Shown here: positions 8,274-27,206 of the stretch, in pieces | Layout: every line of letters begins with the position of its first letter | Numbering within the stretch: position 1 is the first letter of the stretch | Origin: Hymenobacter sp. CRA2 | GTDB taxonomy: Bacteria > Bacteroidota > Bacteroidia > Cytophagales > Hymenobacteraceae | Direction: 5' to 3' | NCBI RefSeq assembly: GCF_002007105.1 | Contig: NZ_MVBC01000002.1 | Coordinates: 558,001 to 622,000, forward strand | Length of the DNA stretch: 64,000 bases | Program-made: the position numbers and the translations under genes | Notes under the pieces: generated by a model | Databases searched by the model: none | The model's input: only the letters and a program-made list of their open reading frames with translations | Told to the model about the DNA's origin: nothing

Positions 8274-8358
8274 GTAGCGCGGACTTTCAGTTCGCGTATC
8301 GTTGCTGACGACCGGACAACCATTGTTCAGCGATACGCGAACTAAAAGTTCGCGCTAC
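8274..8358. repeat. long imperfect inverted repeat between convergent genes
   Basis: The arms 8274-8306 and 8327-8358 are near-perfect reverse complements (GTAGCGCG, AGTTCGCGTATCG) around a 20-nt loop. The right arm overlaps the last codons and stop of the FkbH-like gene. It may act as a two-way terminator; it also resembles a dispersed hairpin element. Confidence 0.75.
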
Positions 8359-10232
8359 AATTTCAGCCGGTCCCACACCTTGCGTACCGGCCGGGGCATA
8401 GCGTCCAGCAAAGCGGCACGTAGCTGCCCAACGGTGGAGCGGCTGAGCTGCCCGCCCTGCCACTGGGCCAGCTCGGCCGCGAGCTTTTCGGCCAGGGCCT
8501 TGTAGAGCGGGCGCTGGTAGTGGCGCAGGTTGTTGGTCACGTCGGCGCGGTGGCGCACGATGTCGCGCACGTCGACCACGAACACGCCCGGCGTGGCGGC
8601 GGCAAAGTCCAGCAGGGCGGCGTTCATCTGCCGGTGACGCTCTACGGCGCCTTTTTCGGCCGAGCCGGGCACCTCTACTTCGGCGCCGGTGAGGACAATC
8701 AGCGGCACGGCGGCGGGCAGCTGCTCGCGCAGCCAGGTCAGGTTTTGGCGGAACCGCTCGGGCGTAAGCGGTCCGACGTAGGTAAATTCCTGCCGAAAGC
8801 GCTGCAGAAATGCTTCGTCCATGCCGCGAAACTTGCGCTGGGCGTAGCGTTGGGCCTGCGCGGCGGGGTCAACTTGCGTGAGGTCCTGGTAGCCGCCGAA
8901 GGGAATCAGCACGCCGGTGGCGTTTTCGCGGTACAGGTCCTGCGTATAGTCCATCAGCGGGCTGTAGACTACGGCGTCGAAATCAGCCTGCCAGAGCCGG
9001 GGGCGAAAAGCTTCTTCGTCCAGGAAAGGCAGCGCGGCGGCCAGGCGGCGCTGCTCCTGCGGGGGCAGCATGCGGCTTAGGCGCAGCAGCTCGGTGTGCT
9101 CGGTGTGGACGGGCACCTGGTTGTCATTGACGTAGTTAAAGTCTTCGACTACCTCCACGGCGTAGGTTTGCAGGTAGGGCGTGAGCTGGCCCAGGTCGCA
9201 GCCGCCCTTGAGCAGGATGCGCAGGCGGTTCTTGGGGGCTGATGCAGGTAACGCGGCCGCGCCGGCAGCCTGGGCTTCGGCGGTGGTTTCCAGCGTAATC
9301 CAGTCCGGGCGCTCCGTGGAATTGAGCTGGGTAGCGACGTCGCCCTGCACCGCCAGCTGCGGAAAACCGAGGTGGGCGTAGGTCCACTGCTCCACGCCCA
9401 GGTGCAGGATGCGGCAGCTGAAGGTGAACTGCTCCAGCTCGTTCGTTTGGGTATTCAGGCAGTACACGCCCACGAGGCCGTAGTCGCCGAACCGGTCGCG
9501 TACGCGCACGGTGCCCCAACGCAGATGTGGCTCCGGCAGGCTGGCTTCCAGCGCGGGCACGGCCACCCGTTTCTTGGTGTAGTTGAGCTGATTGGAGCGG
9601 TTGATCAGCTCGTCGATGCGCGCCAGGTCGGGGCGCACGGCCTCGGCGCCTTCGCGCAGCTCCACGCGCACCTGGGCGTCGCGCAGGAAAGCGAGGTTGT
9701 CGCCCTGATACTCGGCGCGGGCCTGTTGCTGGCGCTCCAGCAGGCGGTACTGCTCCAGACGCGCGTACGAGGGGTCGGGCTTGCCCAATTGCAGCAGCTG
9801 CGGCGCGAGGCGGGGCAAATCGGCCGGATCGGCCACCTGCAGCCGGGGGTTGTAGTGCAGCGCCTCGGCCCGGTTCATGGAGTTGTCGTCGAGAAACAGC
9901 GCGTTGGGTGCGCGCAGCTGCATGTCGTCGAGCAACTGCTTGATGATGGGACCTTTCGGCTGCCAGCTGACCCGCAAAAACACGAACAGGTCGCGCACGC
10001 CCAGCTCGGCCAGCTTGGCCTCGGCCGGCGCCAGGTCGTTTTTGCTGACGACGGTGTGGATGATGCCCCGGGCCGCGGTGGCGCGTACCAGCTCCACGTT
10101 CTCAGCAATGGCTTCGATTTCGCCTTCCGAAAGCGTGCCGCGCCAGAAGGTGTCGTCCAGGTCCCAGATGATGAGCTTGACGGGGTTGTCGGTCGACAGT
10201 TGAAAATTGCCAGTTGTCAGATCGGGCACCAT
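8355..10232 (-). CDS. FkbH-like HAD protein with extra C-terminal SGNH-like domain
   Basis: A 625-residue protein if translation starts at the ATG at 10230-10232. The HAD domain starts at about residue 18: WDLDDTFWRGTL (nucleophile Asp24), VVSKND as the lysine loop and LFLDDNSMNRAEA as the acidic motif, all characteristic of FkbH. The following ~150 residues (RSNQLNYTKKR, GDYGLVGVY, CRILHLGVE) are the usual FkbH companion domain. From about residue 330 there is another ~290-residue region (LLKGGCDLGQL, VVYSPLMDY, PLIVLTGAEVEVP, HYQRPLYKALAEKLA) that looks like an SGNH/GDSL-type hydrolase. FkbH enzymes load a glyceryl group from 1,3-bisphosphoglycerate onto a carrier; no carrier protein is visible here. 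An upstream ATG (10349) would add a Pro/Arg-rich stretch that lies in a repeat tract, so I reject it. It is divergent from pseB. Confidence 0.82.
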   Translation of the reverse strand: MVPDLTTGNFQLSTDNPVKLIIWDLDDTFWRGTLSEGEIEAIAENVELVRATAARGIIHTVVSKNDLAPAEAKLAELGVRDLFVFLRVSWQPKGPIIKQLLDDMQLRAPNALFLDDNSMNRAEALHYNPRLQVADPADLPRLAPQLLQLGKPDPSYARLEQYRLLERQQQARAEYQGDNLAFLRDAQVRVELREGAEAVRPDLARIDELINRSNQLNYTKKRVAVPALEASLPEPHLRWGTVRVRDRFGDYGLVGVYCLNTQTNELEQFTFSCRILHLGVEQWTYAHLGFPQLAVQGDVATQLNSTERPDWITLETTAEAQAAGAAALPASAPKNRLRILLKGGCDLGQLTPYLQTYAVEVVEDFNYVNDNQVPVHTEHTELLRLSRMLPPQEQRRLAAALPFLDEEAFRPRLWQADFDAVVYSPLMDYTQDLYRENATGVLIPFGGYQDLTQVDPAAQAQRYAQRKFRGMDEAFLQRFRQEFTYVGPLTPERFRQNLTWLREQLPAAVPLIVLTGAEVEVPGSAEKGAVERHRQMNAALLDFAAATPGVFVVDVRDIVRHRADVTNNLRHYQRPLYKALAEKLAAELAQWQGGQLSRSTVGQLRAALLDAMPRPVRKVWDRLKL

Positions 10233-10365
10233 TGCACGCGTGGAGTTGTCAGTTACTGGTGGGCAGTTGTCGGGAGGCCGTTGCCGGGGCGGCCAGCGGC
10301 TTGCCGGCAGCGGCCAGGGCAAGCGCCTCCGACAACTCTCAACCGACAACTACTAACTGTGGTGC
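10190..10365. repeat. clustered CAGTTGTC/GACAACTG low-complexity repeats
   Basis: At least six copies of GTTGTC or its complement GACAAC occur within 175 nt between the FkbH-like gene and pseB, and the tract reaches into the start of the FkbH-like frame. Such short degenerate repeats are common between genes in this phylum. Confidence 0.6.
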
Positions 10366-10375
10366 AAAGATTGCC

Positions 10376-10383
10376 TACTTTTG
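10376..10383 (+). promoter_or_regulatory. -7 element of pseB
   Basis: TACTTTTG matches TAnnTTTG and lies 45 nt before the ATG at 10429. It also rules out the in-frame TTG at 10381 as a start. Confidence 0.65.
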
Positions 10384-10428
10384 CGCCCTTGCCGCGGCCC
10401 AGCCGGGCGGCGGACCTTTTTTCTACGC

Positions 10429-11448
10429 ATGGCCCTCGACCTCAACCATAAATCCATTCTGGTAACCGGCGGTACCGGTTCTTTCGGCAAGCAGTTCGTG
10501 CAGACCGTGCTCGACAACTACCCGCAGGTGAAGCGCCTGGTGGTGTTTTCGCGCGACGAGCTGAAGCAGTACGAAATGGCTCAGCACTTCCCTACTTCGA
10601 AGTACCCGGCCATGCGCTACTTCATCGGCGACGTGCGCGACGCCGAGCGCATGAAGCGTGCCTGCGAAGGCATCGACGTGATTGTGCACGCCGCGGCCCT
10701 CAAGCAGGTGCCCGCCGCCGAGTACAACCCGATGGAGTGCATCAAGACCAACATCTTCGGGGCCGAAAACGTGATTAACGCCGCTTTGGACTGCGGCGTG
10801 AAGGACGTGGTGGCCCTGAGCACCGACAAAGCTGCCGCGCCCATCAACCTGTACGGGGCCACCAAGCTGTGCTCCGACAAGCTTTTCGTGGCCGCCAACA
10901 ACATGAAAGGCAGCCGGGATCTGCGCTTTTCCGTGGTGCGCTACGGCAACGTAATCGGCTCGCGCGGCTCGGTGGTGCCCTTCTTCCTGCAGGAGCGCAA
11001 CAAAGGCGTGCTGCCCATCACCCACCCCGACATGACGCGCTTCAACATTTCGTTGGAAGAAGGCGTCGATTTGGTGCTCTACGCGCTGGAGCACTCCTGG
11101 GGCGGCGAGATTTTCGTGCCGAAGATTCCCTCCTACAAAATCACGGAGCTGGCCACGGCCATCGGGCCGGAGTGCCGGCAGGACGTGGTGGGCATCCGCC
11201 CCGGCGAAAAGCTGCACGAGGAGATGATTACCGAAACCGACGCGCTAAGCACCGTGGAGCTGGACCGGTACTACGTCATTCTGCCCTCCACGCCGCCGTG
11301 GGACGTAGAGAAGTTCATCGCGACGTTTAACGGCCGCCGCGTGCCGCTGGGCTTCCACTACGATTCGGCCAACAACACGGAGTGGCTGAGCGCGGAGCAG
11401 CTGCGCGAGGAAATTCGCTTGCACGTCGACGCGGAGTTTCAGGCGTAG
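10429..11448 (+). CDS. pseB: UDP-N-acetylglucosamine 4,6-dehydratase (inverting), PseB
   Basis: A 339-residue short-chain dehydrogenase/reductase. The NAD(P) loop is TGGTGSFGKQF near residue 10, a serine/threonine-Asp-Lys catalytic element is seen in ALSTDKAAAPINLYGATK, and HAAALKQVP near 90 and KIPSYKI near 235 are characteristic of PseB. The enzyme makes UDP-2-acetamido-2,6-dideoxy-beta-L-arabino-hexos-4-ulose, the first step of pseudaminic acid synthesis. The start is chosen because a -7 promoter overlaps any earlier start. pseC and pseI lie downstream on the same strand, but a gene on the opposite strand separates pseB from them. A terminator follows. Confidence 0.95.
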   Translation: MALDLNHKSILVTGGTGSFGKQFVQTVLDNYPQVKRLVVFSRDELKQYEMAQHFPTSKYPAMRYFIGDVRDAERMKRACEGIDVIVHAAALKQVPAAEYNPMECIKTNIFGAENVINAALDCGVKDVVALSTDKAAAPINLYGATKLCSDKLFVAANNMKGSRDLRFSVVRYGNVIGSRGSVVPFFLQERNKGVLPITHPDMTRFNISLEEGVDLVLYALEHSWGGEIFVPKIPSYKITELATAIGPECRQDVVGIRPGEKLHEEMITETDALSTVELDRYYVILPSTPPWDVEKFIATFNGRRVPLGFHYDSANNTEWLSAEQLREEIRLHVDAEFQA

Positions 11449-11517: not shown

Positions 11518-13524
11518 TTAGCGCATTACTTCTACCGTGCCTTTGATTTGCTGGCCGGTGCTGAGGTTGCGCAACACGTAGTAGTACACGCCGGCGGGCT
11601 GCTGCGCCGCGGCCCAATCGTTGGCGTAGCTGTCGGCTTGGTACACGCTACGCCCCCAGCGGTTGAAGATCTGGCAGCACCAATCCGTTGCACGCAGGCC
11701 CTTCAGCACGAAAAAGTCGTTTTGCCCGTCCCCGTTGGCGGTAATGATATTGGGAAGGTTCGGGCAGTCGGCTATGCTGACGGCCACTTCATCCGACGTT
11801 TCGCAGCCCGTTGGCCCGGTTACGGTGAGCCGGTACATACCCGCTTCCGCCACGGTTAGCTGCGCGCCCGTGCTGCCATTCTGCCACCGGTAGGTGCTGC
11901 CGCTGGGCTGGGTTCCCGCTTTGAGCGTCACGGCCTGATCGGCGCACACGTTCAGGTCCGGCCCCAGGTCGACGACCGGCCCAGGGATAATGCGAACCGT
12001 TTGGGTAGTGGTGAACTGGCGGCCGTCGACGGCCGTGACGCGCAGCGTGACGGTGTAGACGCCGCCCTGTGCGTAGCGGTGCACGGGCGCCTGCCCGGCC
12101 GAGGTATTCAGCGGGCCGGAAGCAGGGTCGCCAAAATCCCAGGCATAGGCGGCGGCCGTCACAAACGGGCTGAGCGAAGAGAGAAAAGCCACCGGCTCGC
12201 CGGGGCAGGCCGTGCCCACGCTGATGCTGCCGGCACTGCTCACCACCACCGGCGGCAGGTTCAGGTCGTTGGGCGAGAGCGGCAGCGTGCCGAAGCTGCT
12301 CTGGCGGGGCCGCAGGCTAAGCGCGCTGGCCTGGAGTTGGCAAGCGTTGCCGAGCACGTTGGGCGCCGCAATGCAGCTGACTTGCTCATCGCCGTAGACT
12401 AAGTAGATCTTGCCATCGGGCCCGAGCTTCATGTCTTGCAATCGTTGGCCCAGGTTGGGGCGCGGGGTCACGTGCCGGATCTGGGTGCGACTCGCATCGA
12501 TGGCCCCTGGCGAGCCGGCCAGCAAATCGTACTGCAAGGGGTACAAGCCGGCCGAATCGGCGTAGAGGCGGGCTCCGTCGGGCGAGAATTCCAAGCCCTG
12601 TAGGTTGGCCAGCACGCCCCCGCCCCCGTTTTGATTGCTGTACCAGCCGTAGCCTTTAAAGCGGGTGGGCAGTTCCTGCACGTTGCGGACCTGCCCGGTG
12701 GCCGGATCGAAGGCCGATAGCTCCAACCGGCCGTACGTGCGTCCCCCGTTTTGCTCCCGCGAATTGACCAGGTAGGCCAAGCGACGCCCATCCGGTGACG
12801 CTTTCAGAATCCCGTTGGAGCTCAGCCACCGAGGCGCGACACTGACCACCGGCGCCGCCGATAAGCCCGCCGACGAGAGCAGCCAGCTCACGTATTGCCC
12901 CTCCGTAGCCACGCCCACCAGCCACAGGTCGCGCCCGTTGGCGTGGCGCACGGCGGCCCAGTTGCCCGTCAGGCCGTAAATGGGGGCCTGAATGTGCAGT
13001 ACCCAGCCAGGCAGCTGCACACTATCGCGCCGCACAATGCCGCCCAGGCCGTTGCGGGCGTTGGTATCCACCACCACGTACGGCAGGTACAGGCGCGAGG
13101 CACCGCCCACGGGATATTCGTTGGTGTAAAACTCGCGCTGGCTCACGAACACGTAGAAGCGCGAGCTGCTGCCCGGCTGCGGCAACACCATGACTTGCCG
13201 TCTGTTGGTGCTATAGTTGAGCAGCACCTGCGACACGTTGCGCCCCGGCATCAGGCGCCAGTTTCGGTCCCAGAGCGCGTAGCCATCGGAGGCAAACAGA
13301 AAACGGCCGGCGTCGTCGGACAACGATGCGGCCCCCTGTGGGAACTTCACTTTGCCGTTGAGCAAGGCCGAAGGCTGCGGGCTGGGCGCCACGAAAGAAA
13401 TACCGGCGCTGTCGCCGAAGTACCAGTTGAAATACTCGCGCTGGGCCCGGGCGGGGGCCGACAGCGCCAGGAAGCACAGCAGGGTAATGGCGGCTCGCCA
13501 GTGCATCAGTAAAGAATACGTCAT
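11518..13524 (-). CDS. T9SS type B cargo protein with PKD domain
   Basis: A 668-residue secreted protein. A signal peptide ends near residue 28 (ARAQ). Residues about 30-410 read like a beta-propeller (repeats such as SPDGRRLAYLVN and FSPDGARLYAD). A PKD domain lies at about 430-520 (AYAWDFGDP, GVYTVTLRV), an Ig-like segment at about 520-585 (CADQAVTLKAG), and the last ~80 residues (NIITANGDGQNDFFVLKGL, IFNRWGRSVYQ, PAGVYYYVL) are the gliding-motility-associated C-terminal domain, i.e. a type B T9SS sorting signal. It is probably exported and anchored on the surface. An internal ATG at 13506 is an equally good start. The gene interrupts the pseB-pseC gene order on the other strand. Confidence 0.88.
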   Translation of the reverse strand: MTYSLLMHWRAAITLLCFLALSAPARAQREYFNWYFGDSAGISFVAPSPQPSALLNGKVKFPQGAASLSDDAGRFLFASDGYALWDRNWRLMPGRNVSQVLLNYSTNRRQVMVLPQPGSSSRFYVFVSQREFYTNEYPVGGASRLYLPYVVVDTNARNGLGGIVRRDSVQLPGWVLHIQAPIYGLTGNWAAVRHANGRDLWLVGVATEGQYVSWLLSSAGLSAAPVVSVAPRWLSSNGILKASPDGRRLAYLVNSREQNGGRTYGRLELSAFDPATGQVRNVQELPTRFKGYGWYSNQNGGGGVLANLQGLEFSPDGARLYADSAGLYPLQYDLLAGSPGAIDASRTQIRHVTPRPNLGQRLQDMKLGPDGKIYLVYGDEQVSCIAAPNVLGNACQLQASALSLRPRQSSFGTLPLSPNDLNLPPVVVSSAGSISVGTACPGEPVAFLSSLSPFVTAAAYAWDFGDPASGPLNTSAGQAPVHRYAQGGVYTVTLRVTAVDGRQFTTTQTVRIIPGPVVDLGPDLNVCADQAVTLKAGTQPSGSTYRWQNGSTGAQLTVAEAGMYRLTVTGPTGCETSDEVAVSIADCPNLPNIITANGDGQNDFFVLKGLRATDWCCQIFNRWGRSVYQADSYANDWAAAQQPAGVYYYVLRNLSTGQQIKGTVEVMR

Positions 13525-13525
13525 A

Positions 13526-13593: not shown

Positions 13594-14763
13594 ATGAGCT
13601 TCCAACTTACCCGTTCCATTCCCTACGGCCGCCAGCACATCACCGAAGCTGACGTGCAAGCCGTCATCGATACGCTGCACTCCGATTTTCTGACCCAAGG
13701 GCCGAAAGTCGCTGAGTTTGAGCAGGCCTTTGCCCGCTACATCGGCGTGGAATATGCCGTGGCGGTGAGCAACGGCACGGCCGCGCTGCACCTGTGCGCG
13801 CTGGCACTGGGCGTGCAGCCGGGCCAGCGCGTCATCACCACGCCCATCACCTTTGCGGCCTCAGCCAACTGCGTGCGCTACTGCGGCGGCGAGGTGTACT
13901 TCGCCGACATCGACCCCGAAACGGCCCTTATCGACCTGAAAGCCGTGCGCCGCCTGCTGGAGCAGCACCCCAAGGGCTATTTCCACGGCCTGGTGCCGGT
14001 GGATTTTGCCGGCCTGCCCGTGGATCTGGAAGAAGCGCGCCGGCTGGCCGACGAGTTTGGACTCTGGATTATCGAGGACGCCTGCCACGCGCCGGGCGGC
14101 TTCTTCACCGACAGCCAGGGCCAAGCGCAGCGCTGCGGCAACGGGCAATTGGCCGAGCTGGCCATCTTCTCCTTCCACCCCGTCAAGCACATTGCCACCG
14201 GCGAAGGCGGCATGATTACCACCAACCGCCGCGACCTGTACGAGCAGTTGCTACTGCTGCGCACCCACGGCATCACCCGCGACGCGCAGCGCCTCACCCG
14301 CCCCGATGAAGGTGGCTGGTACTACGAAATGCAGGAGCTGGGCTACAACTACCGCATGCCCGACATGCTCTGCGCCCTGGGCCTGACGCAGCTACAGCGC
14401 GCCGACGAAGGCCTGCAGCGCCGCCGCGAGCTGGCTGCGCAGTACGACGCGGCCTTTGTCCAGGTGCCGGGCGTGACGCCACTGGCCGGCGCCGCGGGCC
14501 ACGCTTATCACCTCTACGTCATCCAGGTACAGGACCGGCGCGGGCTCTACGACTACTTGCGCAGCAAGCAGATTTACGCCCAGGTGCACTACATCCCGGT
14601 GCATACCATGCCCTACTACCAGCAGCTCGGCTGGCAGGCCGGCGACTTTCCGCACGCCGAGGCCTACTACGCCCACTGCCTGAGCCTGCCCATGTTCCCC
14701 AGCCTCTCGGACGACGAGCAGCAGTACGTCATCGACTGCGTGCTGGAGTTTGTGCAGGGCTGA
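13594..14763 (+). CDS. pseC: PseC aminotransferase (UDP-4-keto-sugar C4 transaminase)
   Basis: A 389-residue DegT/DnrJ/EryC1 aminotransferase. The opening IPYGRQHITEADVQAV and SNGTAALHLCALAL are PseC hallmarks; EDACHAPGG binds the cofactor and FHPVKHIATGEGG contains the PLP lysine (Lys198). PseC converts the PseB product to UDP-4-amino-4,6-dideoxy-N-acetyl-beta-L-altrosamine with glutamate as amino donor. An in-frame TTG at 13585 lies within the -7 box and cannot be the start, so I use the ATG at 13594. It heads a co-directional run with short gaps (28 nt to the next gene). Confidence 0.95.
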   Translation: MSFQLTRSIPYGRQHITEADVQAVIDTLHSDFLTQGPKVAEFEQAFARYIGVEYAVAVSNGTAALHLCALALGVQPGQRVITTPITFAASANCVRYCGGEVYFADIDPETALIDLKAVRRLLEQHPKGYFHGLVPVDFAGLPVDLEEARRLADEFGLWIIEDACHAPGGFFTDSQGQAQRCGNGQLAELAIFSFHPVKHIATGEGGMITTNRRDLYEQLLLLRTHGITRDAQRLTRPDEGGWYYEMQELGYNYRMPDMLCALGLTQLQRADEGLQRRRELAAQYDAAFVQVPGVTPLAGAAGHAYHLYVIQVQDRRGLYDYLRSKQIYAQVHYIPVHTMPYYQQLGWQAGDFPHAEAYYAHCLSLPMFPSLSDDEQQYVIDCVLEFVQG

Positions 14764-14791: not shown

Positions 14792-15514
14792 ATGCGCGTA
14801 GGAATTATTTCACAGGTCCGGATGGGCAGCACCCGCCTGCCCGGCAAAGTACTGCTGCCCGCCGCCGGCCGGCCGCTGCTCGATTACCACGTGGTACGCC
14901 TGCAGCAAAGCGGCTTTCCCGTCATCCTGGCCACCAGCGTACTGCCCGCCGACGATGCGCTGGCCCAGTACGCCGAGCAGCACCAGCTACCCTACCACCG
15001 CGGCAGCGAAACCGACGTGCTGGCGCGCTACTACGAAACGGCCAAGGCCCAGCAGCTCGACGTCATTGCCCGCGTCACCAGCGACTGTCCGCTTATCGAC
15101 GGGGAGCTGCTCGGGGCCGCTCTGCGCCGCTACGTGGCCGACGCCAGTCCGCAGGTGTTTCGCTCCAACGCCGTGGTGCGCACTTACCCGCGCGGCTTCG
15201 ACTTCGAAATCTTCTCCTTTGCCCAGCTCGAAGCCGCGCAACAGCAGGCCAATACGGAGTTTGAGCGGGAGCACGTGACGCCCTACCTCAAGACCCGGGC
15301 GCCGGGCATAGCATTTCGCGACGAGGTGAACCCGGCGGGCGACTTCAGCCAGCTGCGCCTGACCCTGGACACGCCCGAGGACTACGAGCTGCTGCGCCGG
15401 CTCATCGAAGAGCACCACGCCGAGACCTTGCCTGGTCCGGCTATCGTGGAGCTGCTGCTTGCTCACCCCGAGCTGGTAGCCATCAACGCCCACGTCGAGC
15501 AAAAAACCACCTGA
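14792..15514 (+). CDS. SpsF/PseF-like cytidylyltransferase
   Basis: A 240-residue nucleotidyltransferase. It opens MRVGIISQVRMGSTRLPGK, the CTP-binding loop of the SpsF/NeuA superfamily, and has ARVTSDCPLID near residue 98, where acidic residues bind metal. In a Pse locus it most likely activates the nonulosonic acid to the CMP form, as PseF does, although the sequence is closer to the SpsF type than to classic PseF. No other cytidylyltransferase is visible in the window, which supports this. I chose the ATG at 14792 because the conserved domain starts there; an upstream frame extension overlaps pseC. It is followed after 12 nt by a methyltransferase gene. Confidence 0.85.
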   Translation: MRVGIISQVRMGSTRLPGKVLLPAAGRPLLDYHVVRLQQSGFPVILATSVLPADDALAQYAEQHQLPYHRGSETDVLARYYETAKAQQLDVIARVTSDCPLIDGELLGAALRRYVADASPQVFRSNAVVRTYPRGFDFEIFSFAQLEAAQQQANTEFEREHVTPYLKTRAPGIAFRDEVNPAGDFSQLRLTLDTPEDYELLRRLIEEHHAETLPGPAIVELLLAHPELVAINAHVEQKTT

Positions 15515-15526: not shown

Positions 15527-16273
15527 ATGGCTGATTCCATCCGGACTTTTTCCAACGCGGCGGCCCCGCAGCAGGACCGCCTGCAGCAGCTCACCGGGCA
15601 CCTGCGCCACTCCCCGCTGCCCGACGCCGAGCTGCTGCACAACCTCGGCCTGTACCTGACGCGCCAGACCCTGTCGCGCCTGCTGTTCCTGGACGAGCTG
15701 TACCGCCAAATCGTGCCCGTGCACGGCGTTATAATGGAATTCGGGGTGCGCTGGGGCCAGAACATGGCGCTGTTTCACGCCTTGCGCGGCATCTACGAGC
15801 CCTACAATTACAACCGCCGCCTCATTGGCTTTGACACCTTTGAAGGGTTTCCGCACGTGGCCGAGCAGGACGGCGGCCGAGCCCAGGTAGGCGATTACAA
15901 CGTGACGGAGGGTTACCAGCAGCAGCTGGAGCAGCTCCTGGCCCTGCACGAGGCCGAAAGCCCCATTGCCCACAAGCGCAAGTTTGAACTGGTGAAGGGC
16001 GACGCCACGGTGACGGTAAAAGAGTACCTGGCACAACACCCCGAAACCGTGGTGGCCTTTGCTTACTTCGACTTTGATCTGTACGCCCCCACCAAGGCCT
16101 GCCTGGAAGCTATTCTGCCGCGCATGCCCAAGGGTGCCATTCTGGCTTTCGACGAGGTGAATTGCCCCGAGTTTCCGGGCGAAACGCAGGCCCTGGACGA
16201 GGTGCTCGGCCTGCGCAACCACGCCCTGCGCCGCAGCCCGCTCAATCCGCTGATTTCCTACATCGTTCTGTAG
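15527..16273 (+). CDS. TylF/MycF-like SAM-dependent O-methyltransferase
   Basis: A 248-residue class I methyltransferase. VIMEFGVRWGQNMALF near residue 68 is the SAM-binding loop (E-x-G-x-x-x-G) and IGFDTFEGFP near 100 is a signature of the TylF/macrocin O-methyltransferase family; FAYFDFDLYAPTKACLEA and ILAFDEVNCPEFPGE supply the metal-binding acidic residues. Family members methylate sugar hydroxyls. Here it is directly joined to the next gene (stop at 16271-16273, ATG at 16274), so it probably decorates the nonulosonate or its substituent. The acceptor is inferred only from context. Confidence 0.82.
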   Translation: MADSIRTFSNAAAPQQDRLQQLTGHLRHSPLPDAELLHNLGLYLTRQTLSRLLFLDELYRQIVPVHGVIMEFGVRWGQNMALFHALRGIYEPYNYNRRLIGFDTFEGFPHVAEQDGGRAQVGDYNVTEGYQQQLEQLLALHEAESPIAHKRKFELVKGDATVTVKEYLAQHPETVVAFAYFDFDLYAPTKACLEAILPRMPKGAILAFDEVNCPEFPGETQALDEVLGLRNHALRRSPLNPLISYIVL

Positions 16274-17839
16274 ATGGAAGCGACCTGGCCCACCGCCTAC
16301 CGGGCGCTGCCGCAGCAGGAGTTTAGCGCCGACGGCTACACTCTGCTGCCCATTCGCTGGCAGGACCGGCAGTTGATCCGGCAGTGGCGCAACGAGCAGC
16401 TGGCTATTCTGCGGCAGAAGGCCCCCATCACGGCCGAGCAGCAGGATCAGTATTTCAGCCAGGTGGTGCGGCCGCTGTTCGGAGCTGAGCAGCCTGGACA
16501 ATTGCTGTTTTCGCTGCTGCACGAGGATGAACTGATCGGCTACGGCGGGCTGGTACACCTCGACTGGGAGGCTGGCCGCGGCGAAATTTCCTTTCTGCTC
16601 AACACCACCCGCAACGCCGACGTGGCCCAGTTCAAGCTGGACTTTGCCGCTTATCTGCGCCTGCTGCAGCAAGTAGCTTTCGAAGCGCTGCCGTTCAACA
16701 AAATCAACACTGAGGCCTACGACGTGCGGCCCTACCTGTTTGAGGTGCTGCTGGCAGCAGGCTTCGTGGAAGAAGCGCGCCTGCACCAGCACGTACGCGT
16801 GGACGGAACGCTCGTCGACACGGTGTTTCACGCCTGCTTTCGGCCCCAAGCGCCGTTGAATGCTTCGCCCGCAGCCGTGCTGGTCACCAGCATTTCGCGC
16901 AAGGTGCCACTGTTGCGCGCCGTGCGGGCCGCGGCCCAGCGCTGGCACTTTGCTACCCGCCTGCTCGGCGCCGATGCCGATGCGCGCTGCCTCGGCCGGC
17001 ACTTCGTGGACGAGTTCTGGCCCATGCCGCCATTACGGGACCTGTCGCTGGACGACTTACTGGCTCACTGTCGCAAGCACCACGTCAAGGCCATCATCCC
17101 GACGCGCGACGGGGAGCTGCTGTTCTGGGCCAAACACCGCACAGCCCTGGCCGAAGCCGGTGTGGCCGTGTTGGTAAGCGAGGCTACTGCCGTGGAGCTC
17201 TGCCTCGACAAGCTGCTTTTTGCCCGGCACCTCGCGGCCCACGGCTTTTCCGCTATTCCCACCGCCCTGCAGCGCACCGAACTCGCTGGCACGCAACAAT
17301 ATGTGGTGAAGGAACGATTCGGTGCGGGTTCTGTGAGTCTGGGCCTGAACCTGACGGCGGAAGCAGCCGACACACACGCCGCTACGCTCCACAGCCCGGT
17401 GTATCAGCCCTTCGTGGCTGGGCGGGAGTTGAGCGTGGATGTGTACGTGGACGCTCAGGGCCGGGCCCACGGCGGCGTGGCCCGCCACCGCAACGAGGTG
17501 CACCATGGCGAGTCACAGGTAACGACGACCGTCGAGCACCCTGCATTGGTAGCGCAATGCCAGCGCCTAGCCGAAAACCTGGGCATTTATGGCCCAGCGG
17601 TGTTTCAGGTTCTGGAAACTCCCGCTGGGGAGCTGCACTTCATTGAATGCAATGCCCGCTTCGGCGGCGCCTCTACCGCCAGCGTGGCCGCCGGCCTGCG
17701 CGTATTCGACTGGTTTCTGCGCGAAGCACTCAGCCCCGACAAGGTGCTGCTGCCTTTTCAGCCGCGGCCCGGGCAGTGGCGGCAGATCCGTTTCCCGGCC
17801 GACTTGGTAGCGCCCGCTGCCGAGGACCTCGATCAGTAG
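16274..17839 (+). CDS. GNAT acyltransferase fused to ATP-grasp ligase
   Basis: A 521-residue two-domain protein. Residues 1-190 are a GNAT domain of the RimJ/PseH kind (IRQWRNEQLAILRQ, LIGYGGLVHLDWEAGRGEIS, KINTEAYDVRPYLFEVLLAAGF). Residues about 197-515 are an ATP-grasp domain of the carbamoyl-phosphate-synthase type (AVLVTSISRKVPLLRAV, AIIPTRDGELLFWA, CLDKLLFARHLAAHG, YVVKERFGAGS, FIECNARFGGAS with the metal-binding Glu/Asn). The GNAT half could do the PseH N-acyl transfer at C4; the ligase half suggests ATP-driven attachment of a carboxylic acid or amino acid to an amine or carboxylate. The gene starts on the base after the preceding stop. Substrate is unknown. Confidence 0.82.
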   Translation: MEATWPTAYRALPQQEFSADGYTLLPIRWQDRQLIRQWRNEQLAILRQKAPITAEQQDQYFSQVVRPLFGAEQPGQLLFSLLHEDELIGYGGLVHLDWEAGRGEISFLLNTTRNADVAQFKLDFAAYLRLLQQVAFEALPFNKINTEAYDVRPYLFEVLLAAGFVEEARLHQHVRVDGTLVDTVFHACFRPQAPLNASPAAVLVTSISRKVPLLRAVRAAAQRWHFATRLLGADADARCLGRHFVDEFWPMPPLRDLSLDDLLAHCRKHHVKAIIPTRDGELLFWAKHRTALAEAGVAVLVSEATAVELCLDKLLFARHLAAHGFSAIPTALQRTELAGTQQYVVKERFGAGSVSLGLNLTAEAADTHAATLHSPVYQPFVAGRELSVDVYVDAQGRAHGGVARHRNEVHHGESQVTTTVEHPALVAQCQRLAENLGIYGPAVFQVLETPAGELHFIECNARFGGASTASVAAGLRVFDWFLREALSPDKVLLPFQPRPGQWRQIRFPADLVAPAAEDLDQ

Positions 17840-17889
17840 GTCTGCTTCGCTGCGGTTTTCCGATTCGCCTAACTCTTTACTCCTTCTCC

Positions 17890-18600
17890 TTGGCTGATTC
17901 CGCCCTGCCCGTCCTCGTTTTCGACCTCGACGATACGCTCTACGAGGAGCTGACCTATGTGCACAGCGGCTTTCGGGCCGTGGCGGAACTGCTGGCGGCG
18001 CGCTTCGGGGCCTCGGCCGAGGAGCTGACGGCGGAAATGATCCGCGAAGAGGCCGAGCACGGGCGCGGCGCGGTGTTCGACGCGGTGATGCGCCGCCGCG
18101 GCTGGTTTTCGCAGAACCTGCGCCAGCAGTGCCTCACCGCATACCGCGGCCACGCCCCGACGTTGCAGCTGCACCCCGATGCGGAGCGCTGCCTGCAGCG
18201 CTTCGCCGCGTACCCGCTCTACGTGCTGACCGACGGCAACAAGCTGGTGCAGGCCCGCAAAGCCGCGGCCATGGGCTTGTTCGAGCGGGTACGGCACGTG
18301 TACGTCACGCACCGCTACGGCCTGCACCGCGCTAAGCCCGACCCGGAACTGTTCCGCCGCATTGCCCGGCGCGAGGGCGTGCCCGCTGGGCAGGTGGTGT
18401 ACGTGGGCGACAACGTGCGCAAGGACTTTGTGGGCATCCGGCCGCTGGGCTTCCGCACCATCCGGGTGCGCCGCGGCAACTACGCCCACTACGTGCCCGC
18501 TACGCCTGGCCACGAGGCCGACGTGCAAATCGACTCGCTGGACGAACTGACGCCGGAGCTACTACACCAGCTTACGGCCACGCCGGCCCAAGCGGAGTAG
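17890..18600 (+). CDS. HAD-family phosphatase with TTG start
   Basis: A 236-residue HAD hydrolase. Motif I is FDLDDTLYEE near residue 12, motif II YVLTDGNK, motif III the lysine in RAKPDPELF and motif IV VVYVGDNVRKDFVG; the alpha-helical cap lies between I and II. The open frame extends far upstream, but that part overlaps the ATP-grasp gene in another frame; the only start near the domain is TTG at 17890. The gene sits 50 nt after the ATP-grasp fusion and just before pseI. It may remove a phosphate from a sugar or activated intermediate. Pseudaminic acid synthesis by PseI yields an unphosphorylated product, so its presence is not explained by the standard pathway. Confidence 0.82.
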   Translation: MADSALPVLVFDLDDTLYEELTYVHSGFRAVAELLAARFGASAEELTAEMIREEAEHGRGAVFDAVMRRRGWFSQNLRQQCLTAYRGHAPTLQLHPDAERCLQRFAAYPLYVLTDGNKLVQARKAAAMGLFERVRHVYVTHRYGLHRAKPDPELFRRIARREGVPAGQVVYVGDNVRKDFVGIRPLGFRTIRVRRGNYAHYVPATPGHEADVQIDSLDELTPELLHQLTATPAQAE

Positions 18601-18637: not shown

Positions 18638-19696
18638 ATGTCTGCTTCCGCTGCTCATTCGCTCACCATTGGCTCGGTGCCCGTGGGTGGAGCGCACCGC
18701 CCGTTTATCATCGCCGAAATGTCCGGCAACCACAACCAGTCGCTGGACCGCGCGCTGGCCATTGTGGATGCGGCCGCCGACGCCGGCGCCCACGCCATCA
18801 AGCTGCAAACCTACACGGCCGATACCATCACCATGGATACCGGCTTCGTGATTCAGGAGGAAGGCACCTCGCTGTGGGAGGGCAAGTCGCTCTACAAGCT
18901 CTACCAGGAGGCTTACACGCCATGGGAGTGGCACGCGGCCATTTTCGAGCGCGCCGCCGAGCGCGGCCTGCTGGCCTTCAGCTCGCCCTTCGATGAAACG
19001 GCTGTAGACTTCCTGGAGTCGCTGAACGTGCCGGCTTATAAGATTGCCTCCTTCGAAAACGCTCACCTGCCGCTGCTGCGCAAGGTGGCCGCCACGGGCA
19101 AGCCCGTCATCGTGAGCACCGGCGTGGCTACGCTGGCCGAAATCGACGAGGCCGTGCGCACCCTGCGTGCCGCGGGCTGCCGCGAGCTGGTGCTGCTCAA
19201 GTGCACCAGCACCTACCCTGCCTCGCCCGAAAACACCAACCTGCGCACGATTCCGGTGCTGGCCGAGACGTTCAACTGCCCCATTGGCCTCTCCGACCAC
19301 ACCATGGGCATCGGCGTGAGCGTGGCAGCGGTGGCTTTGGGCGCCTGCGTCATCGAGAAGCACTTCACGCTGAGCCGCGCCGACGGCGGCGTGGACTCGG
19401 CCTTTTCCATGGAGCCGCACGAGCTGAAGGCGCTGGTGGAAGAAACCGAGCGCGCCTGGCAGGCCATGGGCACCGTGCAGCTGTGCGTGCAGGCCGCCGA
19501 GGAGAAAAGCCGCATCTACAAGCGCTCCATCTACGTGTCGCAGCCGGTGAAAGCGGGCGAAGTACTGTCGACCGACAACCTGCGCATCATCCGCCCCGGC
19601 GACGGGCTGGCGCCGCGCTTCTGGGACGTGGTGCTGGGCCGCACCGCCACCCGCGACCTTAAGCCGGGTACCCCGCTCACCTGGGACCTGCTATGA
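18638..19696 (+). CDS. pseI: pseudaminic acid synthase PseI (NeuB family)
   Basis: A 352-residue nonulosonate synthase. The TIM-barrel part (about 20-270) has AEMSGNHNQSLDRALAIVDAA, IKLQTYTADTIT and SSPFDETAVDFLE, and the C-terminal SAF domain (about 290-350) has KRSIYVSQPVKAGEVL and ends with TPLTWDLL. The MSGNHN motif favours PseI over NeuB or legionaminic acid synthase. It condenses phosphoenolpyruvate with 2,4-di-N-acyl-6-deoxy-L-altrose. The ATG at 18638 is used because an in-frame TTG at 18629 lies inside the -7 box. Its stop overlaps the next start (ATGA at 19693-19696), so the two are translationally coupled. Confidence 0.94.
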   Translation: MSASAAHSLTIGSVPVGGAHRPFIIAEMSGNHNQSLDRALAIVDAAADAGAHAIKLQTYTADTITMDTGFVIQEEGTSLWEGKSLYKLYQEAYTPWEWHAAIFERAAERGLLAFSSPFDETAVDFLESLNVPAYKIASFENAHLPLLRKVAATGKPVIVSTGVATLAEIDEAVRTLRAAGCRELVLLKCTSTYPASPENTNLRTIPVLAETFNCPIGLSDHTMGIGVSVAAVALGACVIEKHFTLSRADGGVDSAFSMEPHELKALVEETERAWQAMGTVQLCVQAAEEKSRIYKRSIYVSQPVKAGEVLSTDNLRIIRPGDGLAPRFWDVVLGRTATRDLKPGTPLTWDLL

Positions 19697-20997
19697 GTCA
19701 GCCGCCGAACCGGGCGGCTACGTCATTGGTCGCCCGGTACCGCGACATTCTGCAGTTGCGCTTCACCCCCGCCTTTGCCGGGCTGCCTCGCCATGCCCTG
19801 AATGTGGTGTCGCCGGCCAGCGCGGTGCGCCGCTTGGTGAAGGTGCTGGGCTACACCGGGCTGCGCCTGGTGGGCAATATCTTTCGGCCGGTGCCGCAGC
19901 CCGAGCCGCTGGCGGGGCGGGTGTGGCTGTACGTGCTCAGCCAGAACAACTACGACGCGCTGCACTTCCTGCGGGCGCACCGCCCCGATGCCGCGATGGT
20001 AGCGGGCCAGAGCAAGCAGATCGGCCGCTACAACGGGCAGGTCGGCCGCCTCTCGCTGCGCGGCAAGCTGCTGTATTACTGGCAGTTTCCGGTGGTATTC
20101 TGGGGACTGTGGCGGCAGCATGGCAGCTTGGCGTGGCGGTTTTTCGACCTGATATACAACGCCATCGGCTACTACGAGGAGTACCGCCGGGCACTGCGCC
20201 GCTACCGGCCGCGGGCCGTGGTGTTTGCCAACGACCACAACGACGACGCCCGCGCCATGCTGCTCGCCTGCCAGGCAGAAGGCGTACCCACGGCCTACAT
20301 CCAGCACGCCAGCGTCAGCACTATCTTTCCCCCACTGGGCTTTGACCTGAACCTGCTCGAAGGCCAGGATGCGCTGGATAAGTATCGGCAGTGCGGCCCC
20401 GTGGCCGGGCAGGTGCAGCTGGTGGGCATGCCCAAGGCCGACGCTTTCGTGGGGCAGCGCAATACCAACCCGGTGGTGCGGCGCGTGGCCATTGCCACCA
20501 ATATTCTGGACCCCACCGAGGGCATTGCGGCGGCGGTGCAGCACCTGAGCGCGCAGTTTCCCGAGCTGCAGTTTACCCTGCGTCCTCACCCCAACGACCA
20601 GCGCGACTTTGCCCAGCTGCTACGGCCATACCCGCGGGTGCAGCTCTCCGATGCCCGCCGCGAAAACGTGTTTGCCTTCCTCGCTGCCCACGACGCGCTG
20701 GTGGCGGCCGATACCTCCACGCACCTGGAAGCCACGCTGTTGAACCTGGCCAGCATCTACTACCGCTTCGGCTCCACCGGCGGCTCGTTCGACTACTACG
20801 GTTACGCAGCCCACGGCCTGGTGGACTACGCCCCTGCGCTGCCGGATATAGACGCACTATTGACCCGCTATCAGCAAGGCAAACCAGCCGACCTCTATCT
20901 AAAAGCTGGCTACTATAACGCTACCCTCGGCACCCCGCACGAGGGGCACAGCCAGCAACTAGCATTGGCTGTGCTGGATCAATGGTTATCCAGCTGA
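19693..20997 (+). CDS. GT-B fold transferase of capsule/CDP-glycerol type, candidate nonulosonate transferase
   Basis: A 434-residue protein without a signal peptide. The N-terminal half holds RAVVFANDHNDDARAM and PTAYIQHASVSTIFP; the C-terminal half holds LRPHPNDQRDF and ALVAADTSTHLEATLLN. These HPND and ADTSTHLEA elements are like those in capsule-type GT-B transferases that use CMP-Kdo, CMP-sialic acid or CDP-glycerol donors. Coupling to pseI by a 4-nt overlap makes it the best candidate for transfer of the CMP-nonulosonate onto a glycan or protein. It lacks the Gly-Gly-His loop expected of PseG, so I do not think it is the missing UDP-sugar hydrolase. Function is inferred. Confidence 0.7.
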   Translation: MSQPPNRAATSLVARYRDILQLRFTPAFAGLPRHALNVVSPASAVRRLVKVLGYTGLRLVGNIFRPVPQPEPLAGRVWLYVLSQNNYDALHFLRAHRPDAAMVAGQSKQIGRYNGQVGRLSLRGKLLYYWQFPVVFWGLWRQHGSLAWRFFDLIYNAIGYYEEYRRALRRYRPRAVVFANDHNDDARAMLLACQAEGVPTAYIQHASVSTIFPPLGFDLNLLEGQDALDKYRQCGPVAGQVQLVGMPKADAFVGQRNTNPVVRRVAIATNILDPTEGIAAAVQHLSAQFPELQFTLRPHPNDQRDFAQLLRPYPRVQLSDARRENVFAFLAAHDALVAADTSTHLEATLLNLASIYYRFGSTGGSFDYYGYAAHGLVDYAPALPDIDALLTRYQQGKPADLYLKAGYYNATLGTPHEGHSQQLALAVLDQWLSS

Positions 20998-24154: not shown

Positions 24155-24174
24155 GCTGCTCTGACTACCAAGCC

Positions 24175-24286: not shown

Positions 24287-25657
24287 ATGAACCTCCCACC
24301 TGCCACCGCTGCACCAGTCACTACTGAAGCCCGCCTGGCCTACGTGCTGCGGCATTTCTGGCTGGCTTACCAGCCGGCTCCGCCCGTGCGCATCGGTTAC
24401 GCGGCAGACCGGCCGCAGGTGGAAGTGCTGGAAGGCGCCGTTGACTTTTTCAGCGGCCACGAGCCTTACCCGGCGGCGCCCAATTTTCGGGCGTGGCAAG
24501 AGCAGCAGGTGCCGTTTTTTTTCGATGCGCACCCCGAACGGCCGCTGCTGGAGTTGCTTCCCGGCCGGGCCGTGGTCAGCGCCGACGTCGTGTCGGCGGC
24601 GTTTTACCTGCTCAGCGGCTGGCAGGAGTACTTCTGCGCGGAGCGCGACCAGCACGGGCGTTTTCCCTACGCGGCCAGCGTGCAGCAGCGCTACGGGTTT
24701 GTGGCGCTGCCGGTGGTGAACTATTACTTCGACGTGCTGCGTCGGGCGGTGGAGCACGTCAGCGGGCAGGCACTGCAGCCGCGGCGCTGGGCGGCCGACG
24801 CGCCGTTTGCCACCTTCGTCACCCACGACATCGACAACCTGTATAGCGCCTGGAAGGAGCCGGCCAAAGCAGCGCTGAAGCGGGGGAACCTGCTCGGGTT
24901 TGGCCGGCATCTTTGGCAGCACCTCGCGCAGCCCGATGCCTGGGACAATCTGGAACAGGTGCAGCAGAACGTAGCAGCTTACGGCGCCTCGAGTACATTC
25001 TTCTTTATCCCGAATTACGGACGGTCCACCGAGCATGGGCCTTACAACGCGGACTACCGCTTGCACAAGCTGATTCCGCGCGTTCAGACGCTAGCTGCCA
25101 AATCTGAAATAGGCCTGCACGGGAGCATCGGTTCCGCTCGTACCCCCCAGCAGCTCGGGGCCGAAGCCGAAGCCATTGGCGAAGCGCTGACGGACAAAGG
25201 CCAGCGGTTGGGCCTGCGCTTTCACTACTTGCAATGGGAGCCGCGCGTGACGCCCGAGCACCTGACTGGCCTCGGCGCGCTCTACGATTCCACCTTGGGC
25301 TTCGCCGAGCATTTCGGCTTTCGCCACTCTTACTGCTTGCCCTTCCGCTTGTTTGACTTCAAGCACGGCCAGGCGTTCGACTTTCTCGAAATCCCGCTGA
25401 ACCTGATGGACGCCACCCTGCACCACCCGCGCTACCTGCGGCTGGCACCCGCGGAAATCATGCCCGCTATCCAGCCCATGCTACAGGAAATCGAGCGGTT
25501 CGGCGGCGTGTTTACTTTACTCTGGCACAACGAAAACTTCGACCCGGCCAACTCGGCGAACGGCCCGCGGGAGTTCCACCGCATCATGGAGTACCTTCGC
25601 GGCCGCGGCACGGCGTTTCTGACGGGCCGGGCAATATGTGCAGCGGTGCAAGAGTAA
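24287..25657 (+). CDS. polysaccharide deacetylase-fold protein
   Basis: About 456 residues. The NodB-like core begins near residue 180 with FVTHDIDNLYSAW, where the HDID carries the expected metal-binding Asp pair; IGLHGS near 280 gives the His, and LLWHNENFD near 415 the late His. The first ~170 residues form a Bacteroidota-specific N-terminal region. It may remove acetyl or act on a glycan, cytoplasmic because no signal peptide is seen. Two starts are possible: ATG at 24287, 4 nt after TATTTTCG (24275-24282), and ATG at 24251, 6 nt after CACCTTTG (24237-24244). It precedes the flippase gene, which supports a surface-glycan role. Confidence 0.75.
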   Translation: MNLPPATAAPVTTEARLAYVLRHFWLAYQPAPPVRIGYAADRPQVEVLEGAVDFFSGHEPYPAAPNFRAWQEQQVPFFFDAHPERPLLELLPGRAVVSADVVSAAFYLLSGWQEYFCAERDQHGRFPYAASVQQRYGFVALPVVNYYFDVLRRAVEHVSGQALQPRRWAADAPFATFVTHDIDNLYSAWKEPAKAALKRGNLLGFGRHLWQHLAQPDAWDNLEQVQQNVAAYGASSTFFFIPNYGRSTEHGPYNADYRLHKLIPRVQTLAAKSEIGLHGSIGSARTPQQLGAEAEAIGEALTDKGQRLGLRFHYLQWEPRVTPEHLTGLGALYDSTLGFAEHFGFRHSYCLPFRLFDFKHGQAFDFLEIPLNLMDATLHHPRYLRLAPAEIMPAIQPMLQEIERFGGVFTLLWHNENFDPANSANGPREFHRIMEYLRGRGTAFLTGRAICAAVQE

Positions 25658-25698
25658 GCTGAGGCGTTTGCCATTCGGCGCCACCACGCTGCTAGCCC

Positions 25699-25735
25699 AA
25701 TACCATAATTTCACGACCTCACTATTTCACCACTT
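25699..25735. repeat. TTCACC-type low-complexity repeat
   Basis: ATTTCACGACCTCACTATTTCACCAC lies between the deacetylase stop and the flippase start. The same words in either orientation recur at 50383-50420 and 50513-50540. Confidence 0.5.
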
Positions 25736-27206
25736 GGGCATCGTCCAGCGGCAGGGGCTGCGCAACACGGTTATTTCCTACTTCGGCCTGGGCTTGGGCT
25801 TCGTCAACACCGCCCTGCTCATGCCGCGGTTTCTGGCTGCCGACCAGGTGGGCCTTACGCGGGTGCTGCTGAGTCTAGCCACCATTTACGCCCAGCTGTC
25901 GGCTTTCGGCTTTGCCAGCGTGGGTATTCGCTTCTTCCCCTACTTCCGCAACCGCGACGCCGGTCACCACGGCTTTCTGCCCTTGCTGCTGGGCCTGCCG
26001 CTGCTGGGTTTTGCCGTCGTTACGGGTGCGTACTGGCTGGGCCAGCCGTTGATTCTGCAGGCCTATGCCACCGATGCAGCCCTGCTCGGCCCCTACTACA
26101 GTTGGTGCGCGGTGCTGGCCCTCTTCACGCTGCTTTACTCCCTGCAGGACGCCTACCTGAAAGGGCTGTACCACACGGCGTTTTCCTCGTTTCTGCAGGA
26201 AGTGCTGCTGCGCGTGCTCATTGCGGGCGTCACGCTGGCGTTTGGGCTGGGCTACCTCTCGTTTCACCAGTTTGTGCTCTGGTATATCGTCGTCAACAGC
26301 AGCATCACCCTGCTGCTGACGGGCTACCTGGCCTACATCGGGGAACTGCACCTGCGGCCTAAGCGGGCGGCGCTGGCGGTGCGCCCGGTACGCGAGCTGC
26401 TGAACTTCGGGGCCTTCGCCCTGCTCTCCAACATTTCCGGCACCGTTATCAGCTCCATCGACGCCCTGATGGTGGGCTCGAAGGTGAACCTGAAAGCGGC
26501 CGGCGTGTACACCACGGCGTTTTTCATCAGCACGGCGCTGACCATTCCCTTCCGCTCCATCAATAAGATTGCCTTTCCGCTGCTGGCCGATTACTGGAAG
26601 GAAAATGATTTGCCGCGCATGGCCGAATTCTACCGCAGCACCACCCGGCTCAATACCGTGCTGGGCTGCTACCTGGCCCTGGGCATCGGCCTGAACCTGG
26701 ATTTCATCTACTCCCTGATGCGGCCTGAGTACGCCGCCGGGGCCACCATCGTGTGGCTGCTGCTCGTCGGCCGCCTCATCGACGGCATCACCGGCGTCAA
26801 TGGCCTGATCGTGGTGACTTCGCCGCGCTACCGCTTCGATTTGTTTTTCAACGCCGGGCTGGCCGTGGCCACGGTCTTGCTGAATCTGCTGCTCATTCCG
26901 CCGCTGGGCATGGTGGGCGCGGCCTGGGCGGCCCTGCTGGCCCTTACCAGCATCAATGTAGCCCGCACGTGGTTTGTGTGGCACGCCTACCGCCTGCAGC
27001 CCTTCGATTACCGCATTCCGCTTATCCTGGCCATATCGGCCGCCACGGCGCTGGCGGCGTGGCTGGTTCCGCCGGTGCACTCCCCGCTGGTGACCATGCT
27101 CGTGCGTTCGGTGCTGCTGACGGTGGTGTACGCGGGGCTGGTGCTGCTCACCAGCGCCGTACCCGAAGCCACAGGTTTGGTGCGCAAGCTCACCGGACGC
27201 CGCTAA
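25734..27206 (+). CDS. Wzx-like oligosaccharide flippase
   Basis: A 490-residue polytopic membrane protein of the MOP/Wzx superfamily with about 14 hydrophobic segments and a positively charged C-terminus. I prefer the TTG at 25734 (GIVQRQGLRNTVISYFG) because flippases in this phylum begin just before this conserved amphipathic start; an earlier ATG at 25638 would add 32 residues from a repeat and overlap the preceding gene. It should flip a lipid-linked oligosaccharide across the inner membrane and so close the glycan export pathway. Its stop codon overlaps the stop of the convergent CPBP gene (27203-27206). Confidence 0.85.
   Translation: MGIVQRQGLRNTVISYFGLGLGFVNTALLMPRFLAADQVGLTRVLLSLATIYAQLSAFGFASVGIRFFPYFRNRDAGHHGFLPLLLGLPLLGFAVVTGAYWLGQPLILQAYATDAALLGPYYSWCAVLALFTLLYSLQDAYLKGLYHTAFSSFLQEVLLRVLIAGVTLAFGLGYLSFHQFVLWYIVVNSSITLLLTGYLAYIGELHLRPKRAALAVRPVRELLNFGAFALLSNISGTVISSIDALMVGSKVNLKAAGVYTTAFFISTALTIPFRSINKIAFPLLADYWKENDLPRMAEFYRSTTRLNTVLGCYLALGIGLNLDFIYSLMRPEYAAGATIVWLLLVGRLIDGITGVNGLIVVTSPRYRFDLFFNAGLAVATVLLNLLLIPPLGMVGAAWAALLALTSINVARTWFVWHAYRLQPFDYRIPLILAISAATALAAWLVPPVHSPLVTMLVRSVLLTVVYAGLVLLTSAVPEATGLVRKLTGRR

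Follow-up and report, generated by a model that had tools for sequence, protein, structure and literature searches.

The canonical route to cytidine monophosphate (CMP)-pseudaminic acid, for which we follow the enzyme roles given in the cited section of PMC6388019, runs through PseB, PseC, PseH, PseG, PseI and PseF in Campylobacter, Helicobacter and Tannerella. For the 7-N-glyceroyl pseudaminic acid of Tannerella, the gene responsible for the glyceroyl group is called elusive in the cited part of PMC6120980; for flagellin glycosylation islands of Geobacillus, the passages of PMC5109656 on related strains give PseH as the enzyme not found; and for the sfmABCDE flagellin modification genes of Shewanella oneidensis, the corresponding part of PMC3765264 lists homologues of PseB and PseC, a NeuB-like protein, a methyltransferase and an ATP-grasp protein, and reports no clear PseH or PseG. 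Here we consider a pseudaminic-acid-type locus of Hymenobacter sp. CRA2, contained in a stretch of 64,000 nucleotides of contig NZ_MVBC01000002.1 (the window, whose positions give all coordinates below), and in particular the GNAT half of a 521-amino-acid (aa) fusion protein, here called A1, as a candidate substitute for PseG.

The locus shares with the canonical pathway PseB, the inverting uridine diphosphate (UDP)-GlcNAc 4,6-dehydratase (10429..11448; TIGR03589, 526 bits), PseC, the UDP-4-amino-4,6-dideoxy-AltNAc transaminase (13594..14763; TIGR03588, 474 bits), and PseI, the pseudaminic acid synthase (18638..19696; TIGR03586, 494 bits), all of which pass the curated NCBI equivalog cut-offs in a TIGR profile search of the locus proteins and bear out the names given to them in a first-pass annotation of the sequence. 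An SpsF-type cytidylyltransferase (CTP_transf_3; 14792..15514; PF02348, 76 bits) is presumed to fulfil the PseF function. These genes, like those of the window given below with coordinates unless the minus strand is indicated, are on the forward strand, and their order is that of PseG-positive relatives. Unlike the canonical pathway, the locus has no PseG (the GT-B UDP-sugar hydrolase of TIGR03590) anywhere in its genome, and no PseH (a GNAT N-acetyltransferase) is seen in the locus: A1 (16274..16870, N-terminal half of the fusion; Pfam GNAT, alignments and hhalign) stands in the place of PseG, and an ATP-grasp ligase domain (16871..17839, C-terminal half; PRK12767/PylC-N type by family matches) and a HAD phosphatase (17851..18600) stand in that of PseH. 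The Shewanella genes differ in that their ATP-grasp protein is of the ATP-grasp_4 type, not of the family found in the window, and in that no GNAT is named among them in the part of the report cited (PMC3765264). We consider it probable that the pathway encoded here is a variant of the pseudaminic acid type, with other enzymes taking over two of its six standard steps: A1 would act as a GNAT-fold UDP-sugar hydrolase, and the ATP-grasp and HAD proteins would provide the N-7 acyl group.

Distribution and position of PseG and A1

The TIGR03590 model gave no match at E ≤ 0.001 anywhere in the assembly (5.9 Mb, 99.97% complete), and the same model is positive in all seven other sampled genomes of the genus (165-192 bits); the absence of PseG, first noticed in the window, thus extends to the genome. 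We then considered a sample of 150 genomes of the window's family, searched for PseI, PseG and the fusion protein. PseI is over its cut-off in 134 of these; in a further six the only matches are NeuB-like and weaker, and in the last ten there is no match at E ≤ 1e-20. PseG is found in 116 of the 134 PseI genomes (115 over the cut-off of 153.55 and one, G099, just under it at 151.8 bits; a weak match in G111, E 8.5e-4, was left out of the count). The fusion query matches 18 genomes, every one through its GNAT half; they coincide exactly with the 18 PseI genomes that have no PseG, so that none of the 134 has both proteins and none has neither. The GNAT, ATP-grasp and HAD genes are all present in 17 of the 18 (the window and L070-L085); the other genome, G101 (locus L086), has only the GNAT gene of the three, plus a true PseH, for which reason the two halves of the fusion were searched separately.

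A sample of 345 genomes drawn evenly from the phylum gave the same picture. The ATP-grasp family occurs in three of them (E ≤ 1e-50) and the A1 family in nine (E ≤ 1e-12). PseI is present in 50 at E ≤ 1e-100 (49 over the cut-off). It is accompanied in 41 of them by a PseG match at E ≤ 5.8e-29 (28 pass the curated cut-off and 13 score 101-153 bits), and the remaining nine are exactly the nine A1 genomes, again with no genome having both or neither. A1 itself has no homology to TIGR03590 and belongs to a family unrelated to PseG, and no A1 genome has a credible PseG match: the matches that the model does give there are weak (E 7.5e-5 or worse), cover only part of it and look like the secondary matches of PseG-positive genomes. 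A1 is the sole exchanged gene found every time that PseG is missing in the two samples and, since it sits where PseG is missing in the relatives examined, it probably does the job of PseG. A genome lacking PseG would usually be scored as incomplete for pseudaminic acid; very likely, these genomes are not incomplete. No relatives of A1 were found in a scan of viral contigs or in plasmids, and a contig scan with the whole fusion gave one locus, from Geobacillus, matched through the ATP-grasp half.

The exchange can also be followed in the gene order. In four PseG-positive loci of the family (L087-L089 and L182), the order is PseB-PseC-(other genes)-SpsF, then PseG and PseH (fused or apart), then PseI, a GT-B protein, a deacetylase (not seen in L089 and L182) and a flippase, and in the A1 loci of the family A1 and its partners occupy the PseG/PseH slot between SpsF and PseI. 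In a second family, the PseG-positive locus L179 reads PseB-PseC-AKR-SpsF-AT3-PseG-PseH, with PseI two genes further on, and L198 reads PseB-PseC-AKR-SpsF-AT3-(A1-PseH)-PseI, an order that L193 and L197 match from PseC on with one extra gene; the AT3 proteins are each 79-82% identical to that of L102. A1 also shares with PseG the N-terminal place in fusions with PseH: PseG-PseH fusions of 488-496 aa are found in L087, L089 and L180-L182, and A1-PseH fusions of 330-350 aa at the corresponding place in 13 of the 45 mapped A1 loci (L103, L106, L188, L189, L193, L195, L196, L198, L199, L201, L202, L204 and L205). A1 is fused to ATP-grasp in three loci (the window, L070 and L104).

The first-pass annotation had listed the ATP-grasp and HAD proteins among those in the place of PseG and PseH, and one could imagine that this pair, and not A1, replaces it, for example with the HAD protein completing a two-step removal of UDP. 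Of the 18 genomes of the family without PseG, 17 do have the pair between SpsF and PseI, but it is missing in G101 and in six of the seven PseG-less phylum-sample loci outside the family, and it coexists with PseG in the flagellin glycosylation island of Geobacillus thermocatenulatus BGSC 93A1 (L069), tracking instead the absence of PseH. On the evidence of G101, the second family and Geobacillus we rejected the pair as the PseG substitute, a role that we regard as highly improbable for it.

A1 as a relative of PseH

Profile comparison by hhalign (97.8%, E 8e-13) aligns 156 columns of A1 with its homologue PseH, and Pfam and profile matches put it among the GNAT proteins, whose fold is thereby predicted for it. 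Among proteins of solved structure, those nearest to it in sequence are SpeG-like acetyltransferases, and PseH (4ri1) ranks lower (E 2e-4). The earlier identification of this half of the fusion as PseH did not survive closer comparison: the GNAT half gives no match to TIGR03585, the PseH model, at E ≤ 0.001 (the true PseH of L086 scores 149 bits, for a cut-off of 93), and in other loci A1 adjoins or is fused to a separate PseH.

In GNAT acetyltransferases, a glycine-rich Q/RxxGxG/A loop binds the pyrophosphate of acetyl-coenzyme A (CoA). This pattern stands at the loop in none of 25 A1 rows versus six of nine PseH rows. A lone glycine is found in the loop zone of four of the 25, and three A1 rows match the pattern elsewhere (RLLGQA, further along, in all three, and in one of them also in the N-terminal part). 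Across the 25 rows, 33 residues are invariant. The alignment of A1 with PseH shows WRN, QH and D residues in common. Among the residues of A1, R39, N40, Q57, H173 and D182 fall opposite positions that do not vary in three PseH rows, R47, Q48, Y90-G91-G92, E104, D150, R152 and H186 are conserved specifically in A1, and R152 aligns with the invariant Asn128 (N128) of PseH. This pattern fits a relative of PseH that would still bind a nucleotide sugar and no longer CoA.

The same homology could mean that A1 is still an acyltransferase, acting on the 4-amine or at another position, and that UDP is released by an unlinked and unrecognised hydrolase, always gained on the loss of PseG. An unlinked hydrolase distributed like A1 is the main alternative to our reading, and one that we think unlikely. 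The relationship of A1 to PseH and to the SpeG-like acetyltransferases and its assignment to GNAT by Pfam speak for it, but the CoA loop is missing in all 25 A1 rows, a separate candidate for the N-acyl step is already present in all 45 A1 loci, and A1 is in the place of PseG, no PseI genome of the two samples being without both. Very improbably, plain Pse5Ac7Ac could be made by a locus in which A1 is an ordinary PseH, the PseG activity coming from a promiscuous housekeeping enzyme; only the homology between A1 and PseH favours this, and against it a PseH or PseH-like GNAT stands alongside A1 in L086, as in most second-family loci, and a promiscuous enzyme would not predict the complementarity of A1 and PseG.

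Several points weigh against A1 as a UDP-sugar hydrolase, and against the pathway proposed around it. To our knowledge, no GNAT-fold UDP-sugar hydrolase has been described. Three of the nine PseH rows are also without the exact loop pattern and the loop is degenerate in a solved PseH, 4xpk of Campylobacter, so that loss of the motif is by itself no proof. D182 and E167 fall from invariant to at least 90% in a 16-row set that includes four further sequences, and a single-sequence AlphaFold model of A1 had a mean predicted local distance difference test (pLDDT) of 43.9 and was not used. The acid joined by the ATP-grasp domain is not readable from its sequence. As the genomes are related, the 18 and nine cases found in the two samples are not independent events. 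On a quick tree of PseI (83 rows, 29 of the 80 inner branches open, with long-branch warnings, and with PseG rows from the window's family that are mostly the best PseI scorers and not a random draw), the A1/PseG label must change five times, and strongly supported branches force two of these changes; the exchange has thus probably happened several times, not 27 independent times. Finally, among 199 genomes of a second genus (that of G317), A1 was found in 20, PseG in five and both in none, a zero overlap that is near chance (about 0.5 expected); as these counts are small and PseI was not counted there, they carry little weight on exclusivity. Nineteen of these 20 genomes gave 20 stretches around A1 (G612 gave two, and the twentieth genome, G317, is that of the already mapped L107), of which 19 contain PseI and one, L200, stops at a contig edge.

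The acylation step and the proposed pathway

The separate N-acyl candidate of the 45 A1 loci is a PseH-like GNAT in 24, ATP-grasp with a phosphatase in 19 and a formyltransferase in two, several of the PseH-like GNATs being called by blastp or Pfam only or lying under the PseH cut-off, and L192 having both a GNAT and a formyltransferase. No match to TIGR03585 was found among the ten proteins of our locus that were tested, the rest of the genome not being searched for PseH. In L086 the true PseH is in place of ATP-grasp/HAD and A1 is kept, although the PseI tree groups this locus within the ATP-grasp clade. By contrast, L069 of Geobacillus has the HAD and ATP-grasp proteins (the latter 51% identical to that of the window) beside an SpsF-type protein and PseI, together with PseG (290 bits), and no A1 or PseH-like stretch was seen in its 20.9 kb by tblastn with seven GNAT/PseH references. 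With these two combinations, the exchange of PseH for ATP-grasp/phosphatase and that of PseG for A1 appear as separable.

The ATP-grasp domain has the residues conserved across its family (family match and alignment), and 2pn1 is the only solved sequence that it matched at E ≤ 0.1. The HAD phosphatase is TIGR02253-like by family matches, below the cut-off of that model and with an uncertain start codon, and its DLDDT, TDG, KP and GDN..KD residues are invariant in 16 rows. Family matches thus confirm the ligase and phosphatase of the first-pass annotation, as they do its TylF-type methyltransferase (15527..16273). In 15 of 17 loci of the family, a short-chain dehydrogenase/reductase (SDR) is fused to ATP-grasp; the window and L070 are without it, and the SDR was therefore rejected as an essential part. 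In L207 (1850-4730, second family), A1 lies beside a separate SDR, a calcineurin-like phosphatase (a metallophosphatase) and ATP-grasp, and there is no HAD gene; the HAD protein seems to have been replaced here by an unrelated phosphatase, which suggests a need for phosphatase chemistry as such.

An unusual N-acyl group on the nonulosonate is a plausible product of the ATP-grasp/HAD pair. To this extent the earlier proposal of an amine acylated by a different route stands; its extension to an O-methylated acyl group stands less well, as the methyltransferase more likely acts on a hydroxyl of the sugar. Its closest solved relative in a PDB sequence search is CalS11, a nucleotide-sugar 3-O-methyltransferase (E 3.8e-67; TDP-rhamnose 3'-O-methyltransferase by its PDB name), which makes a sugar hydroxyl a likelier target than a glyceryl group. 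Of the other 17 A1 loci in the family, 14 have a copy of the methyltransferase gene that is 69-77% identical. It is nevertheless conceivable, if rather doubtful, that the N-acyl group is glyceroyl or O-methylglyceroyl, the HAD protein converting phosphoglycerate to glycerate, ATP-grasp ligating it and the methyltransferase modifying it. An N-7 glyceroyl is known in the Pse5Am7Gra of Tannerella, with no gene assigned in the portions cited of PMC6388019 and PMC6120980, a phosphatase goes with ATP-grasp even when it is not a HAD protein (L207), and the SDR-ATP-grasp fusion of most family loci is in keeping with this group. Amino acids or other hydroxy acids would however fit the ligase equally well, the methyltransferase resembles sugar O-methyltransferases, and the ATP-grasp of the window has no SDR.

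The FkbH-like HAD-IIIC protein encoded upstream (8355..10349, minus strand), which had been included in this route as a glyceryl-loading enzyme, is divergently oriented and scores 123 bits, under the cut-off of 146.65. It was rejected as part of the variant: next to pseB, a copy 80% identical has the same position in L087, a locus of the same genus that has PseG, and we leave FkbH out of the pathway for this reason. Among the other 19 mapped stretches of the family, FkbH was seen in none (L071, L072, L073 and L074 stop at or before pseB), and no ORF (open reading frame) resembling an acyl carrier protein was found in the window by a loose pattern scan, a weak test. Across the family genomes it is A1, and not FkbH, that tracks the loss of PseG.

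The pathway that we propose would begin as in the canonical case, PseB and PseC forming, by homology, UDP-4-amino-4,6-dideoxy-AltNAc. The ATP-grasp ligase, not PseH, would then spend ATP to join a carboxylic acid to the 4-amine, and the HAD phosphatase would make or trim the acid used. A1, not a GT-B-fold PseG, would take UDP off the altrose intermediate, as its complementary distribution, position, fusions and loss of the CoA motif suggest. The free sugar would be joined to phosphoenolpyruvate by PseI and activated with CMP by the SpsF-type enzyme, roles assigned by homology, and the CalS11-like enzyme would probably O-methylate a hydroxyl of the sugar, possibly while this is still linked to the nucleotide.

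Neighbouring genes and meaning of the exchange

PseI is followed by a gene for a GT-B glycosyltransferase-like protein (19693..20997), presumed to be a nonulosonate transferase, by one for a LamG-like surface protein, by one for a DUF7033/VimE-like deacetylase (24287..25657; family match, under the VimE cut-off) and by a flippase gene (25638..27206). The names GT-B, LamG and flippase do not come from family matches, and we use them as presumptive; GT-B and flippase homologues were found by blastp in the family loci. The GT-B protein has homologues 64-71% identical in most family loci, with PseG or without it (49-52% in a more distant genus), and was rejected as a hidden PseG on this ground. 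As the GT-B and flippase genes are also present in PseG-positive loci, they lie outside the variant: of the SpsF-like protein, transferase and flippase first thought to complete the pathway, the cytidylyltransferase stands and the other two are not specific to it. The DUF7033/VimE-like gene comes after the GT-B gene in most family loci, PseG being present or not, and its copy in L085 consists of two ORFs; the relationship to VimE, a UDP-diacetamido-sugar deacetylase, hints at possible de-N-acetylation of the glycan.

Between pseB and pseC, on the minus strand, lies a gene for a putative PKD/gliding-motility-type surface protein (11518-13524), with homologues at the same place in L070, L073, L080-L084 and L086, and not in L075-L079 or L085. 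In L084, a "pseudaminic acid biosynthesis-associated methylase" (TIGR03587, 252 bits) is encoded at 6498-7145, and ORFs of similar size are found there in other sister loci; the window has too little space for such a methylase at the corresponding place. A set composed of an AKR-like reductase, an SpsF-type protein and a class-III aminotransferase (glutamate-1-semialdehyde aminomutase-like) recurs in L102, L179, L188, L193, L197, L198 and L203, the aminotransferase being fused to SpsF in L106, and may possibly modify the nonulosonate further. In L107, L180, L190 and L191, acetamidino-modification genes of the HisF/HisH type separate PseC from A1 or PseG, and in L207 (where PseC is outside the stretch) they adjoin A1, suggesting acetamidino derivatives.

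We lean towards the view, drawn from comparison of sequences, that A1 represents a new class of GNAT-fold UDP-sugar hydrolases, a relative of PseH which would have given up acetyl-CoA to become the next enzyme of its own pathway and which would have been exchanged with PseG several times in the Bacteroidota. Pseudaminic-acid-type synthesis would then be modular, the installer of the N-7 acyl group (PseH, formyltransferase or ATP-grasp with a phosphatase) and the releaser of UDP (PseG or A1) being swapped independently. Among the papers listed in a literature search, no title or abstract shown describes a GNAT protein replacing PseG, which is weak evidence of novelty. If A1 does release UDP, a GNAT-fold protein would have shifted by one step within its own pathway and become a hydrolase of sugar nucleotides, a case of enzyme recruitment in which, in many genomes, the relative, PseH, still adjoins the recruited protein or is fused to it. 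The ATP-grasp/phosphatase cassette, for its part, would provide concrete candidates for the installation of non-acetyl groups at N-7.

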